Source: Candidatus Woesearchaeota archaeon (lineage in GTDB: Archaea; Nanobdellota; Nanobdellia; Woesearchaeales; GW2011-AR4). Taken from it: a DNA stretch of 54,542 bases. Every line of letters begins with the position of its first letter. Within the stretch, counting starts at the first letter, position 1. The DNA lies in NCBI GenBank assembly GCA_002688775.1, contig NZDH01000004.1, forward strand, positions 1 to 54,542, given 5' to 3'. This document shows, one piece after another, positions 22,741 to 28,855 of the stretch. The position numbers and the translations under genes were made by a program. The notes below the pieces were generated by a model. It was not told where the DNA came from. It did not search any database and saw only the letters and a list, made by a program, of their open reading frames with translations.

Positions 22741-23946
22741 TCAGCCTTGTTGCTGGGCTATAACAACTTCATCTGTTGTCAGATCCTTATAATTTCCCAT
22801 GACTGAAGGTCTTCTGAAAACATATGAATTATCTTCTTCAACTGAAAAAAACTCGCTTAACGCAAGCCTTGAAGGATATGCGTCTATTTCTTCAGATAAA
22901 ATAACTGTAGGAACTTGTGTAATGTCATACTTAGCAATAAGCTCTTTTCCTTTAACATCGCTTATGTCAACTGTTTCTTCTTTACCAAGGATCATGGCAA
23001 AGCTTTGAGGACTTGTAATAATCTCTTTATGTGTATTAACATCATAACATTCTATACAGGTGCTGTCAGTCAAATAGGTAATATCGATTAAACCTCGCAA
23101 TTTTCCTGTTGTTATGTTGATGTAAGGTGGATTGACTACTCTCATCACATGCGTGCCGTCGCTTTCTATGCTTCCAATCTGAGGCCATGCCTGCTGAATT
23201 ATTGGATAGATACCAGCATCTTCTGAGAATAAGATTATCGGAATAAAGTCAATTTTGTATTTATCAATCAGCTCTTTTCCTTCGGCACTGTTGGAATCAA
23301 TATTCTTTTCTTCAGTGATTGTTATGCCGGAACTCTTTATTTGATTTACCAAAGTTGCCAAGTCATTGCAATCAATGCATGCTGGATCATTTAAGTTATA
23401 AAGCGTGACTCTGCCTTGTATCTCGCCTGTTTCAGCATCTGTGTATGGTGGCGTGATTTCAGGCAGCAATAATGAGTCATCATTCTTTACAAGGCCCTGT
23501 ATGTTTATTTTGTCAATCTCGCCTGTTATAACAATTGCTGGAATTTGTTGGATATTATACTTGCTTATTATCGCTTTGGCTTCATTTGAATCAAATTCAA
23601 GAGAATTTTCAGATGTAATCTCTACATTTCCTGTCTTAACATGGCTTGAAACAGCTGTAATGTCAAAACAATCAGTGCATGTTGGATTTACAATAGTGGT
23701 AAGCTCAATTTTTGCAGGCTTTGCTGCTTCTTCAGCATCTGCTGCACCTTTATTGATATCCTTATTAATGTTGAAAGTGATAACTAAGTTAACCAGGACT
23801 ACAACACCGAGAATTAAGGCCACAGCAACAAAAATATTGTCATAATTAAGCCTTTTCAGCTTTTGAGAAATGGGTTTTTTAGGGTGATGTTCGTGATGAT
23901 GTGCATGCTCATGGGGCTTATGCTCTTCTTTTTTTTCATCTGCCAT
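22741..23946 (-). CDS. His-rich membrane protein with three tandem thioredoxin-fold-like repeats
   Basis: N-terminal HEHAHHHEHH, one TM, CTDC/CIDC/CIEC each followed by a IPAIVI/IPIILF/VPTVIL cis-Pro-like motif ~45 aa later. Confidence 0.75.
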   Translation of the reverse strand: MADEKKEEHKPHEHAHHHEHHPKKPISQKLKRLNYDNIFVAVALILGVVVLVNLVITFNINKDINKGAADAEEAAKPAKIELTTIVNPTCTDCFDITAVSSHVKTGNVEITSENSLEFDSNEAKAIISKYNIQQIPAIVITGEIDKINIQGLVKNDDSLLLPEITPPYTDAETGEIQGRVTLYNLNDPACIDCNDLATLVNQIKSSGITITEEKNIDSNSAEGKELIDKYKIDFIPIILFSEDAGIYPIIQQAWPQIGSIESDGTHVMRVVNPPYINITTGKLRGLIDITYLTDSTCIECYDVNTHKEIITSPQSFAMILGKEETVDISDVKGKELIAKYDITQVPTVILSEEIDAYPSRLALSEFFSVEEDNSYVFRRPSVMGNYKDLTTDEVVIAQQQG

Positions 23947-23947
23947 T

Positions 23948-24424
23948 TTAACCTTGTAATTTACAGCCTGTTATTGCAGCTAAACTTTCAAATGACTGGA
24001 CATTCTCATACCATTTATCCTGATAAACCCACGTTGGAGTTTTTTTAATTCCGGGAAGGTCTTGATATTCATGATATTCTATTTCGTCAAAAGATTTTCC
24101 AAACATCCCTTTTTGAGCTTGAGTGTACTGGCACCAGTCCATTGCACCATACATAACAGCGCCTTTTTCAGTCAAGCATTTTGCAAAGCCATCATATTGG
24201 CCGGGCTTGCTTATTGAATAAACAGAAAAACCGCCAACAGCCAATATTAATATCCCAACAATAGCTCCGATAATATAATATTTTGATTTACGTGATTTAG
24301 TTTTTTGCTCTTGAAATTGTTTTTGATGCTCAAGCCTTTGCTCATGCTCTTGTTGGACTTCCTGGCTTTCATGTCTTAACTTCTCCAGCCTAAGCTTTCT
24401 TTTTTCTCTTTTAGTCAATTCCAT
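23948..24424 (-). CDS. Membrane-anchored thioredoxin-like domain with WCQYT active-site variant
   Basis: FAKCLTEKGAVMYGAMDWCQYTQAQKGMFGKSFDEIEYHEYQDLPGIKKTPTWV. Confidence 0.7.
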   Translation of the reverse strand: MELTKREKRKLRLEKLRHESQEVQQEHEQRLEHQKQFQEQKTKSRKSKYYIIGAIVGILILAVGGFSVYSISKPGQYDGFAKCLTEKGAVMYGAMDWCQYTQAQKGMFGKSFDEIEYHEYQDLPGIKKTPTWVYQDKWYENVQSFESLAAITGCKLQG

Positions 24425-24468: not shown

Positions 24469-24675
24469 TTAAAATGCAGAATCTGATGGTGCCACAGCTT
24501 CTATTGGTGTGTCTTCGTAATCAGCATGCGGAGCAACTCCACAACCTCCACCTACAAATGGCTGTTGCTGTCCCTGCTGCTGGTTAAATGCCCCACCTGT
24601 AGTGTTAGGAGATGTGCAACCAAAAAGAAAAACACCAACCAATAAAACTACAACCATTAAAATTTTTACATTCAT
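24469..24675 (-). CDS. Small lipoprotein-like protein with GGGCG motif
   Basis: MNVKILMVVVLLVGVFLFGCTSPNTTGG... lipobox. Confidence 0.55.
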   Translation of the reverse strand: MNVKILMVVVLLVGVFLFGCTSPNTTGGAFNQQQGQQQPFVGGGCGVAPHADYEDTPIEAVAPSDSAF

Positions 24676-24693: not shown

Positions 24694-24897
24694 TCAGCAT
24701 CCACCAACCATACTCGGTAGATCTTCTAAGTTTGATGGAAGACTAGCTCCACCACCAGAACTACTTGCTGGTGCACTACCAACACTAACCTTGCCTGTGC
24801 TTATGCTTGTCTTCAAACTGCTCAATTGGATTGCCTGAACTGCTGTCAGCATAACTAAAACAACGAGCACAATCACAATAATAACATTTCTGTTCAT
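24694..24897 (-). CDS. Small single-TM protein ending in DLPSMVGGC
   Basis: MNRNVIIVIVLVVLVMLTAVQA...LPSNLEDLPSMVGGC*. Confidence 0.65.
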   Translation of the reverse strand: MNRNVIIVIVLVVLVMLTAVQAIQLSSLKTSISTGKVSVGSAPASSSGGGASLPSNLEDLPSMVGGC

Positions 24898-25169
24898 TTT
24901 TCTCTTACCTCCGTATAAGTTTTTAATATGAATTTATAAATATTTGGGTTTGATTTTTTATATTGAATTTTTTAATTTTTTATTATTGTATTTTTAGTTA
25001 TTGGAATTTTTTAGTAGTACATTAACGATTAACTAACTCCTACATTAACAATCATTTGTTCATTTATTTCTTCTGTATTGTATTTATTTTCTAATATCAA
25101 TAAAAATTAAATTTGTCAAAAATCACCCATCATTGGTGGAATTCCGTTGTTTAAAAAATAAAATAATTA

Positions 25170-26273
25170 TTAACATCCACCTACCATTGAAGGTAGATCG
25201 TCTAATGGTGTTACTTGCGCATGGGTTTGTTGTTGAGTGTTAGGAGCTTGCTGCAAGAATTGCTCTCTTATACCTATAGCTCCACCATGATTTAAAATTG
25301 TTGCTGGTTGCTGGCCTGTAAAAACTAAATAATCTTGTATCATGCCCTTGGGATACCAAAGTGCCTTCCATTTTGTCATCTCGCCTAATATTTCCTCGTC
25401 ACTGTATTCTGGATAATACTTTATGAAGAATTTTGCCATGCCCTGCCATGCATAACTATGTGCACAACCGCATCTGTTTATCGTTGTAACTCTGCTAGGA
25501 CCGCCACAGCAAAAATCGCATGTAAACACACTTGTAAGCTTATTCCATCTCTGCTCTTCTTCTGGAGTAAGCTGAACAGCATTGTCAGTACCAAACCTTC
25601 TTGAGCCTAGCAAAGAAGCCCAAACCTTTTGACTTGCTATTGGATCATCAAAACTAGCGCCTTGTATTTTTTCACTACCAGAACCCCCTAAGACATAAGA
25701 GGGTGTTCCAGTTGGAACTACACTTGTTATTGCATCCTGCGTTGGGTTGTTAGTATTTATTGGAGCTGGCGTGTCACTTATTGTGGGCCATTCCACAAGC
25801 TTTGTTGTTCTTCCATCAGGGTTTATCTGAGGTCCAATTACAGCTCCGCCTTTGCCAGAGCCTAATTTTAATGGGGAAGAGACAGACTTTACAAAACTGC
25901 TAACTGGCAAAGGAGATGTGCCACTCATCGAAGCATTTACTTGAGAAATCTGGAGCTGATTAAAAATAATTAATATTGCAATAATCCCAATAAAACCAAA
26001 GTTTATTTTTTCATGAAGGCTTAAAGGTATTTTTTCAGCTTTAACAGGATGCTCTACAACATGTCCTATATGATGTTTTTCCTTTTTCAAAAACAGCCAT
26101 GCAACTAATGCTATTAGCGCAAAAATTAACAAGAACGAAATAGAATTAAGGAAAATGCTGGATGAGAGCTTAGCAAACTGAAATTGGCTGAAAATAAGGA
26201 CAACACCAACTAAAATAATTAAAAAGATTATAACTTTCTCTAAAAATGTGTCTTCTTTAGCTTCGTGAGTCAT
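25170..26273 (-). CDS. Membrane protein with Cys-rich domain (CDFCCG...RCGCAHSYAWQGMAKFFI) ending in DLPSMVGGC
   Basis: N-terminal hydrophobic segments and Cys-rich domain; loosely similar to PCYCGC-motif proteins. Confidence 0.65.
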   Translation of the reverse strand: MTHEAKEDTFLEKVIIFLIILVGVVLIFSQFQFAKLSSSIFLNSISFLLIFALIALVAWLFLKKEKHHIGHVVEHPVKAEKIPLSLHEKINFGFIGIIAILIIFNQLQISQVNASMSGTSPLPVSSFVKSVSSPLKLGSGKGGAVIGPQINPDGRTTKLVEWPTISDTPAPINTNNPTQDAITSVVPTGTPSYVLGGSGSEKIQGASFDDPIASQKVWASLLGSRRFGTDNAVQLTPEEEQRWNKLTSVFTCDFCCGGPSRVTTINRCGCAHSYAWQGMAKFFIKYYPEYSDEEILGEMTKWKALWYPKGMIQDYLVFTGQQPATILNHGGAIGIREQFLQQAPNTQQQTHAQVTPLDDLPSMVGGC

Positions 26274-26368: not shown

Positions 26369-27316
26369 TTATCGTTCATAGGCTGTTATTCTATGGTTTT
26401 TGACAAATTTGTAAAATATGTACCATAACAAGGCTAGGAGTACTATGCCCAGAACATTCCCTAGGGTAGTTGAAATTCCTAGGTTCAGCAACCACTCCTG
26501 ACCGAACCTTGCCAATACCATGGTTTCTGCTGGGTCTACTGCATTGAAGATGAATGTTCCACGAAACACAACAAAGAGAAGCCCAAAAAAGACAAAGAAA
26601 AGTGCAGATACTATGCTAGGGATTGAGGTAGTTATAGGCCCAAGAGACAAGGTATTTTTTCTTATCCATTCTACCCTGGAAACATGGAAGTAATCGTATA
26701 GCAAGGCAAGAGCCATCATAGGAAGAAATAAGCCTACAGTATACATAAACATCAATGCAGCTGCATTCAACGAGCTAAATGCATTGTTGCCAATAACCAA
26801 GATAGCTGCTGAGATGGGAAAAACACAAGGTGTATAACCAACAGCGAATAAAGCACCAAAGGTAAAGACTCCCCAGAGGTCATTTCCATCTTTGTTCGGC
26901 TTGAAGAATGGAATAGTTTTGTTAAGGAAAATAAAGACAGCCCATACTAAAAAGACGATGCCAACACCTAATGCTATCTCATAACGATGGACTCTCAAAA
27001 AGCTGCCTATGCCAAGGCCGCCCAATGCAAAGAGAGATGAAACAATTCCAACTCCTAATAGAAAAATACCGAATGTTTTGGTCAGGTTTTTTCGTTCTTT
27101 ACCTGCAACAGCAATGAAAGCAAGAGTTATGGAAAGTACACATGGGCTGAGCAAGGCAATGACACCTCCGATTAATGCAACTAAAAAATTCATAGCTGCA
27201 ACTTGCCTACCCTGCTCCTCCAACAGCTGGACTAAACCAGGAGGAAGGTCGAGCTGGGAAAAGACACTGGGCAGTAAAAGCAAGAATAAAAAAAATATAA
27301 GGATGTATTTTTTCAT
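26369..27316 (-). CDS. CcdA/DsbD-like membrane thiol transporter (1)
   Basis: ALLSPCVLSITLAFI and AVGYTPCVFPISAAIL paired SPC/TPC motifs; multi-TM. Confidence 0.85.
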   Translation of the reverse strand: MKKYILIFFLFLLLLPSVFSQLDLPPGLVQLLEEQGRQVAAMNFLVALIGGVIALLSPCVLSITLAFIAVAGKERKNLTKTFGIFLLGVGIVSSLFALGGLGIGSFLRVHRYEIALGVGIVFLVWAVFIFLNKTIPFFKPNKDGNDLWGVFTFGALFAVGYTPCVFPISAAILVIGNNAFSSLNAAALMFMYTVGLFLPMMALALLYDYFHVSRVEWIRKNTLSLGPITTSIPSIVSALFFVFFGLLFVVFRGTFIFNAVDPAETMVLARFGQEWLLNLGISTTLGNVLGIVLLALLWYIFYKFVKNHRITAYER

Positions 27317-27344: not shown

Positions 27345-27794
27345 TCAGAAGCATTTTGCATGTTCATTTTTGGTTATAGATGTATCATCTTCTTTCATTG
27401 CCATATAAACTCCTGTAGTGAAGAGTTCTGAATTGATTATATCATCTCCTGATAGCTTTCCGCTATCATAAACAACGCAGCTCTTTCCTTGCTGCACTTG
27501 GGCGTTAATTATTCCCTCTATGTTGACAAGACCATAAAAAACAGTATCTGAGCAGGATATGCATGACAGCCCATCTATCCTTAGTTGGAGATTATGAAAA
27601 TTCCCACTTTCGATTTCTGCTTGGGTTAATTCCCTGCCTTCTATTCTTGTTTGAGTGAGTTTTGCTATGGCTTCAAAGTTGCTTAACTTATTTGAAGAGT
27701 CATTAGATTTTCCAGTAACAGATTGAAAAACAACAACTACAGCAACAAATAATACGGCTGCTATAATTACGTAATGCAATGTTTTAAGTTTCAT
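27345..27794 (-). CDS. Membrane-anchored HMA-like domain protein
   Basis: LQLRIDGLSCISCSDTVFYGLVNIEGIINAQVQQGKSCVVYDSGKLSGDDI (GxxCxxC, HMA-like). Confidence 0.65.
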   Translation of the reverse strand: MKLKTLHYVIIAAVLFVAVVVVFQSVTGKSNDSSNKLSNFEAIAKLTQTRIEGRELTQAEIESGNFHNLQLRIDGLSCISCSDTVFYGLVNIEGIINAQVQQGKSCVVYDSGKLSGDDIINSELFTTGVYMAMKEDDTSITKNEHAKCF

Positions 27795-27982: not shown

Positions 27983-28855
27983 TTACCTCATCATGCTCAT
28001 CCCTGACAAGTCCATACTTGGAAGAGAGATTATTGTATAGATGATATAAGCTGCAGTGGCAAGCATAACGATGCCAGCTACTTTTTTAAGCATTTCTGTG
28101 GAAGCCATGAATTTTTCTGTTAATATTTTTCTGGACCTGCTTATCAGCACAGTAGCAAGTATCATGCTTATCCCCAATGCCAAGGAGAAAATGACAAAAC
28201 TAGTGATGCTTGTCAGAAGATCTCCACCAACTAGTGGGTAGATAATCAAAGGAACCATCAACAGCAAGGCACACATGAAAGCTTCTATGCCATAAAAAAT
28301 GCCAAAGAAGAAAACACCCTTTTCATGGCTAGTGCTAAGGCTTTGCTTAGAAAGCTTCTTTGCATTGAGGAATGGAATATATTTTTTTACGTTTATTGAA
28401 AGATTAAAAAGCAATGTTACTCCCACTATTATCAATATGGCGGCAGATATCTCACGGTTATATGCCATTAACCACATACCAACAATCTGGCCAAAAATAA
28501 TGATCAATACTCCTAATACAAGGTAAAATGATACTAAGCCAAGTGCTGCAAAGCTTCCATAATACACTGCTTTCTTATTGCCCACTTCCTTGATGTTGAG
28601 ATAGTACGCAAGATATGCAGGCAAGATTCCTATGGCACAAGGAGCGAAGAATGAAACTACACCGGCAAATAGAGCAAAACCATAAAACACTAAAGGAGGC
28701 AAAAGGCCGATTCTTGTCACATTTGCAGCTGCATATCTAAGATAACCAAAGTAACCAAACCAAGCCAAAATAACAAAAGATAAAAAAATCCCCAACAAGA
28801 TAAAAAAGTAAATATTTCTATTTTTGTTTTTTTCCATCATCTTTAACATAAACAA
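27983..28855 (-). CDS. CcdA/DsbD-like membrane thiol transporter (2)
   Basis: SFFAPCAIGILPAYLAYYLN; multi-TM. Confidence 0.8.
   Translation of the reverse strand: MFMLKMMEKNKNRNIYFFILLGIFLSFVILAWFGYFGYLRYAAANVTRIGLLPPLVFYGFALFAGVVSFFAPCAIGILPAYLAYYLNIKEVGNKKAVYYGSFAALGLVSFYLVLGVLIIIFGQIVGMWLMAYNREISAAILIIVGVTLLFNLSINVKKYIPFLNAKKLSKQSLSTSHEKGVFFFGIFYGIEAFMCALLLMVPLIIYPLVGGDLLTSITSFVIFSLALGISMILATVLISRSRKILTEKFMASTEMLKKVAGIVMLATAAYIIYTIISLPSMDLSGMSMMR

Follow-up and report, generated by a model that had tools for sequence, protein, structure and literature searches.

The locus and its genes

The window analyzed here is a stretch of 54,542 nucleotides from an archaeal genome of 1.04 Mb (19 contigs, 73% complete), whose publicly named relatives belong to Woesearchaeota, Pacearchaeota, Aenigmatarchaeota, Diapherotrites, and other DPANN archaea. 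Two of its genes encode proteins with the same C-terminal tail, and genes for CcdA and thioredoxin-like proteins flank them. The features of the locus are the following:

22741-23946, minus strand: membrane-anchored protein with three thioredoxin-like CxxC domains (Thioredoxin_3 over the cut-off)
23948-24424, minus strand: thioredoxin-like protein with a single-Cys 'DWCQ' site (conserved cluster c2; assigned by eye, no Pfam match above the cut-off)
24469-24675, minus strand: small lipoprotein with lipobox LFGC and an internal VGGGCG at 24538-24555 (conserved in relatives)
24694-24897, minus strand: small tail carrier of 67 aa, with an N-terminal membrane anchor, a Ser/Gly-rich linker, and the MVGGC tail (ORF; ends in ...NLEDLPSMVGGC)
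24694-24711, minus strand: MVGGC and stop codons of the small protein (pattern match and amino-acid conservation)
25170-26273, minus strand: large tail carrier of 367 aa, with membrane anchors, a conserved Cys/His domain, a linker, and the MVGGC tail (ORF; ends in ...PLDDLPSMVGGC; homologs)
25170-25187, minus strand: MVGGC and stop codons of the large protein (pattern match)
25350-25520, minus strand: core of an undescribed domain, CxxCCG-(11)-CGCxH ... E ... W ... P, residues 252-308 of the large protein (conservation; AlphaFold)
26369-27316, minus strand: CcdA/DsbD-type membrane electron carrier (PF02683 DsbD_TM, 32.2 bits, cut-off 27.1)
27345-27794, minus strand: membrane-anchored protein with a GLSCISC motif (from the sequence; HMA-like by eye, no Pfam match over the cut-off)
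27983-28849, minus strand: second CcdA-like membrane protein (groups with the CcdA family; weak match to the DsbD region of TsoB)

The shared tail DLPSMVGGC had been noticed in a preliminary description of this DNA, and we confirm it: the 67-aa protein ends in LEDLPSMVGGC and the 367-aa protein in LDDLPSMVGGC. The internal GGGCG reported there for the neighbouring lipoprotein is also present. In at least 6 relatives (loci L061, L064, L067, L068, L073, and L074), this lipoprotein family keeps both the N-terminal lipobox LFGC and the internal motif, as [YF]VGGGC[GS]V, and the lipoprotein of the window is probably a third Gly-Gly-Cys carrier. A putative counterpart (L071:1139-1291) ends in IGGGCGG, close to the C-terminus of SoxY. 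Lgt occurs twice in the genome of the window with equal score and length (G000:C2:55774-56520 and G000:C18:24276-25022), possibly a duplicated segment of the assembly.

An invariant C-terminal motif

We searched for the tail with a degenerate DNA pattern for MVGGC and a stop codon, run blind, with the reversed pattern as a control. The pattern occurred in 25 of 39 relatives, and the control had 0 matches. Among 371 genomes taken evenly from the phylum of the window, 99 have the motif, 92 of them in at least two copies, while the reversed pattern gave 3 matches and QVGGC with a stop codon, a near neighbour of equal complexity, was found in 6 genomes. The reversed-pattern controls and the comparison with QVGGC rule out a chance origin of the tail.

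The conserved unit is MVGGC: this is the exact ending of 195 of the 197 ORFs that terminate in [MLIV]VGxC (101 loci). The preceding residues vary freely and 'DLPS' is specific to a clade. Most tails have G, S, A, Q, or T directly before the motif, behind a variable and unconserved low-complexity linker of Gly, Ser, and Ala. There are 1 to 4 carriers per genome, confined to one or two loci. A search of the literature for 'MVGGC' returned nothing relevant.

The nucleotide sequences that encode the tail are diverse, with at least 112 different 18-mers and all three stop codons. In the two genes of the window, the tail is written AGT ATG GTT GGT GGA TGC TGA and TCA ATG GTA GGT GGA TGT TAA, the serine before MVGGC coming from two codon families. 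Such codon differences, together with the number of 18-mers, rule out a recent duplication. The preliminary description had named two conditions that would refute its idea, a motif missing from homologs and two genes that are recent partial duplicates; neither holds, as the homologs have the motif and the diversity of the 18-mers speaks against the duplicates. Wobble positions are identical at a rate of 0.45 between tails of the same locus vs 0.34 between loci, a modest excess that probably reflects the codon use of the genome and the use of the tail as a Shine-Dalgarno site. In statistics covering 93 non-redundant loci, the glycine codons read GGAGG in 54 of the 84 tails with a next start at -10 to 15 bases, vs 16 of the 50 whose next start is more than 40 bases off, with no enrichment in the latter. 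Since GGAGG is enriched only near the next start, codon choice in coupled genes is under selection at the DNA level, and the tail codons double as the Shine-Dalgarno site of the coupled next gene, which is a real secondary use. The gene following the large gene of the window starts 272 bases away, and the tail of this gene is therefore not the ribosome-binding site of its neighbour.

Tail carriers

The motif is strictly C-terminal, with neither a membrane helix nor a basic cluster behind the cysteine, and is borne by three kinds of proteins: large proteins with an extracytoplasmic domain, small anchored proteins that consist of only a linker and the tail beyond their anchor, and small anchored proteins with an extra motif, e.g., GWTENEKMNYEMHGTIPARL. 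Some small carriers (L087:2382-2639, L104:5445-5735, and those of L113, L142, and L146) share a conserved Met/His-rich motif before the tail, either GWTENEKMNYEMHGTIPARL or ETYEEMMARMHPDQ. The density of lysine and arginine is 0.184 ahead of the membrane helix vs 0.051 behind it, and by the positive-inside rule this excess places the N-terminus inside and the C-terminus, hence the tail, outside. Large and small genes are close neighbours. Of 93 non-redundant loci, 80 have the small counterpart adjoining the large gene, and all but one of 101 small carriers lie at most 1.5 kb from a large gene (median distance of 6 bases).

The two proteins had initially been described as otherwise unrelated. 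This is probably not so: their middles differ, and their N-terminal membrane anchors are alike (profile comparison, E about 3e-9, the best of 16 control anchor families reaching 1.4e-6). Because the anchors resemble each other beyond these control families, the small protein may be a large protein that lacks its domain.

The Cys/His domain

The extracytoplasmic domain of the 367-aa protein is defined by the motif CxxCCG...CGCxH. Homologs of the large protein are found in 25 of 39 relatives and in 103 of the 371 genomes of the phylum. In an alignment of 98 sequences, C106, C107, C119, C121, H123, E149, W153, and P159 are invariant, and C103 is kept in at least 90% (numbering of the modeled crop, to which 149 must be added). 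AlphaFold models are all-helical, with a pLDDT of 83 for the crop from the window and of 90.5 for a homolog (L084). The cysteine loops of the former have a lower confidence (pLDDT about 70), which is often seen where a metal is missing from the model. In both models the tail block reaches a pLDDT of 79, vs 65 for the linker before it in the window protein and 54 for the N-terminal linker in L084, which hints that the tail docks on the domain in these predicted structures.

Searches of Pfam, NCBIfam, PHROGs, and PDB sequences assigned no family to the domain or to the tail, and a fold search of the PDB with the two models gave nothing better than E = 2. The bacterial PCYCGC proteins, considered as possible relatives, were rejected, with no Pfam match at E up to 1 and no useful literature. 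Some shorter relatives of the domain (L104:5769-6317, L119:9963-10493, and L173 of genome G109) have CCDV...CQCGHH and, further, SYEEMM.AHHG as an internal motif, with GSC close to the C-terminus; they are a possible ancestral or side branch of the domain. A search of one side-branch protein against plasmids gave no match. The literature that we searched, whose coverage leaves out most subscription journals and preprints, holds no description of a system made of this tail and this domain.

Concerted changes in tails and domain

Tail and domain are almost always found together: every one of the 99 genomes with MVGGC has the domain, and of the 103 genomes with the domain all but four have MVGGC. 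The four exceptions among the 371 genomes are G048, G336, G358, and G111. Two of them carry pairs of altered tails that share QVGGC, i.e., LPGQVGGC with LPKQVGGC in G048 and LPGQVGGC with LPSQVGGC in G336. In G358 the tails are VPDQVGGCF and IPDQVGGCF, and the cysteine motifs of the domain are altered too. The fourth, G111, has a single carrier ending in IVGEC. No other QVGGC pairs exist among the 371 genomes. As congeners (G216, G294, G092, and G223) retain MVGGC, the tail changed at least three times, each time in both proteins. The concerted changes represent compensated co-evolution of the two proteins, and the tail is thus explained by neither chance nor recent duplication.

Some large proteins lack the tail and the adjacent small protein still ends in MVGGC; in two loci with a tail-less large protein, the small one ends in QVGSC. 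The concerted changes, together with the tail-less large proteins next to MVGGC small ones, exclude the neutral inheritance of a copied 3' end. These patterns of change and loss fit one shared recognition event. The tail had been suggested to be a recognition tag, an idea that is now well supported by its strict C-terminal position, its near invariance, its modularity, and its concerted change in both proteins. An obligatory role of the methionine as a copper ligand is weakened by its change to glutamine in three lineages. Given that the cysteine never changed, the methionine would more likely be a recognition residue than a metal ligand.

Gene neighbourhoods: thiol and copper

Two types of loci recur. 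Type A, to which the window belongs, has CcdA-like proteins, triple-thioredoxin and single-Cys thioredoxin-like proteins, and the [YF]VGGGC[GS]V lipoprotein; in 21 of 93 loci, a gene for the triple-thioredoxin protein (Thioredoxin_3) lies no more than 6 kb away. Type B is commoner. It has a membrane protein with an AHCPLC motif, encoded directly downstream in 60 of 93 loci (e.g., L120:6017-6547, and 59 others), in which A-H-C-x-x-C is invariant. This protein is found in 62 of the 99 genomes with MVGGC vs 7 of the 272 others. It is uncharacterised, and a signal peptidase could leave it with an N-terminal histidine. Other type B neighbours are a membrane-bound HTH protein (64 of 93 loci) and cupredoxins (52 of 93, by clustering).

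Motif tests for copper markers were made on the 74 loci of at least 9 kb. They revealed copper ATPases of the P1B type, bearing a CPC or CPH motif, in about 30 of the 74, DUF411 proteins, a family that includes CopG, in 19, and HMA proteins in 11, with at least one copper marker in 43. Cupredoxin genes are generally widespread (230 of 371 genomes), and among the matches listed in MVGGC genomes 25 of 79, by manual count, lie within 10 kb of the locus, where 2-4% would be expected (p at most 2e-16). We recognised no copper ATPase or cupredoxin near the locus of the window itself, and its genome, which is 73% complete, has neither the AHCPLC protein nor a match to Cupredoxin_1. The link to CcdA genes put forward initially is particular to the locus type of the window; the commoner type is marked by copper genes. 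In contrast to the frequent copper genes, those for rhodanese and DoxX/DoxD-like proteins are sporadic, being present in only some loci.

On three contigs with a bacterial label (L118, L137, and L145), the large protein ends in MVGGC or MVGDC and is accompanied by the AHCPLC protein and by a copper ATPase of the CPH type, but by no small carrier. The large gene is 18 to 1273 bases from the ATPase, and the system therefore also exists outside archaea, in a compact form to which copper export belongs. Bacterial housekeeping genes (e.g., obg, typA, uppP) were confirmed on L118 and L137. A transfer between DPANN archaea and CPR-like bacteria is likely.

A proposed cysteine arm and its alternatives

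The reading that we favor, tentatively, is that MVGGC tails are mobile C-terminal cysteine arms that work with the CxxCCG...CGCxH domain in a Cu(I)/thiol relay outside the membrane. The arm and the partnership of tail and domain are well supported. The nature of the cargo, the direct docking of the tail, the metal or thiol chemistry, and the direction of transfer are parts that we infer; Cu(I) is the most likely cargo, proposed because the neighbours in type B loci fit it. The arm would be tethered outside the membrane by its N-terminal helix and a flexible Gly/Ser/Ala linker, and would act on the domain or be recognised by it. The domain's own arm would serve in cis, and the arms acting in trans would come from its small anchored companions, one to three in number. 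The thiolate of the terminal cysteine would bind the cargo and swing it to and from the Cys/His site of the domain. Copper leaving the cell through P1B-ATPases would reach this site and go on from there to cupredoxin-like or DUF411-type partners, the arms shuttling between the exporter, or membrane proteins, and the acceptors. In type A loci, CcdA and the thioredoxin-fold proteins would keep the cysteines reduced. A more specific version, which we regard as possible though somewhat unlikely, is that MVGGC is a portable peptide ligand, with the terminal cysteine of the protein's own tail or of a companion's tail completing the Cys/His metal site of the domain. Such a metallosite, with two components and a new fold, would be undescribed, and would move copper or electrons across the cell-surface space in DPANN archaea and some bacteria.

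Other readings account for part of these observations. The tail could be a signal for C-terminal processing or modification, as in dedicated sorting systems, with an enzyme, perhaps the CxxCCG/CGCxH domain itself, modifying or cross-linking the terminal cysteine. The near-perfect co-occurrence of tag and domain is the type of evidence used for GlyGly-CTERM and rhombosortase (PMC3237569), and the invariant Cys, His, and Glu of the domain could be catalytic. We nevertheless consider this unlikely: nothing resembling a membrane helix or a basic cluster follows the tag, the candidate enzyme is itself tagged, and the carriers are few per genome, confined to one or two loci, and already anchored in the membrane. 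A SoxY-like sulfur carrier, with the Gly-Gly-Cys arm bearing persulfide or thiosulfate intermediates and CcdA and thioredoxin resetting it, is likewise unlikely. SoxY does end in GGCGG with a sulfur-carrying cysteine (PMC6067878), the lipoprotein next to the window's carriers has VGGGCG and its putative counterpart a similar ending, and thiol and sulfur genes are found at the locus or at some of its relatives. However, Pfam scans of the carriers and of the domain gave no match to SoxY, SoxZ, or other Sox proteins, and the sulfur genes are sporadic when compared with those for copper.

Lipidation of the terminal cysteine by Lgt or a prenyltransferase, which was among the functions first suggested, is very unlikely; the two others, transfer of a metal and exchange of thiols, agree with the neighbouring genes. 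VGGC does match the lipobox pattern, Lgt is near some loci, and an Lgt-like transferase has been proposed for the cysteine of MYXO-CTERM (PMC11980579). But Lgt is present in 22 of 25 genomes with MVGGC vs 9 of 14 without it (Fisher p = 0.11), only about 8 of 93 loci have it at a distance of up to 6 kb, and the cysteine is the last residue of a protein that is already anchored. Even less probable is a copper-responsive nascent-chain element causing translation arrest, by analogy with the C-terminal Pro motif and the Cys motif of CutF. This idea draws on the small extracytoplasmic proteins, the copper loci, and the strictly C-terminal conserved motif, such a motif being essential in CutF (PMC8456105), and it is countered by the presence of the same tail on a large, well-folding domain protein and on several tandem genes, with all three stop codons in use. 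Finally, the GGNGG codons might be kept as the Shine-Dalgarno site of the next gene, the amino acids being incidental. The enrichment of GGAGG near the next start agrees with this, yet conservation extends to Met, Val, Cys, and the stop through 112 different 18-mers, tails with no start in the next 40 bases, that of the window's large gene among them, still read MVGGC, and the concerted change from Met to Gln would go unexplained. A purely DNA-level constraint is thus hardly credible.

Comparison with known systems

The cysteine arm that we propose resembles SoxYZ in having two glycines before a cysteine that carries cargo (here a proposed one), in the flexible C-terminal arm, in the extracytoplasmic location, and in the thiol reduction relays nearby. 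It differs in that MVGGC carriers have no homology to SoxY or SoxZ and no two glycines after the cysteine, and in that the motif ends several membrane-anchored proteins, is paired with a novel Cys/His domain, and is surrounded mostly by copper rather than Sox genes. Like the sorting systems GlyGly-CTERM/rhombosortase, MYXO-CTERM/myxosortase, and PGF-CTERM/archaeosortase, it is a short C-terminal motif that tracks one partner family. Unlike them, it forms the very end of the protein instead of a tripartite arrangement of motif, helix, and basic cluster, the anchor of its carriers is N-terminal, and the partner itself is tagged. In lipoproteins modified by Lgt, the lipobox cysteine is residue +1 after an N-terminal signal peptide, whereas the cysteine of MVGGC is the C-terminal residue.

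The copper modules (CopA with CusF; CopG/CutG of the DUF411 family; CutF) share with these loci extracytoplasmic Cys-rich proteins whose genes adjoin those for P1B copper ATPases, DUF411, and cupredoxins, as judged against the operon contexts described for copper chaperones (PMC7558416, PMC8456105). According to Hausrath et al. 2020, as cited in PMC8456105, CopG binds a Cys-bridged tetranuclear copper cluster. The likeness to periplasmic copper chaperones lies in the linkage to copper export, i.e., to the P1B-ATPases and DUF411 counted above, with the exception of the window's own locus. The domain and the tail are, however, unrelated to CusF, CopG, CutF, Sco, and PCuAC in Pfam and NCBIfam scans and in the fold search.

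An exact five-residue C-terminal motif on different proteins across a phylum, with compensating change, is a rare sign of a dedicated recognition system. Uncultivated DPANN archaea have many surface proteins without annotation, and the motif offers a way to approach some of them from function first. Together, tail and domain point to an undescribed cysteine relay of the cell surface, probably one linked to copper. This suggests that, outside the membrane, these small host-dependent cells handle the chemistry of copper or thiols with components that the family and structure libraries searched do not contain.
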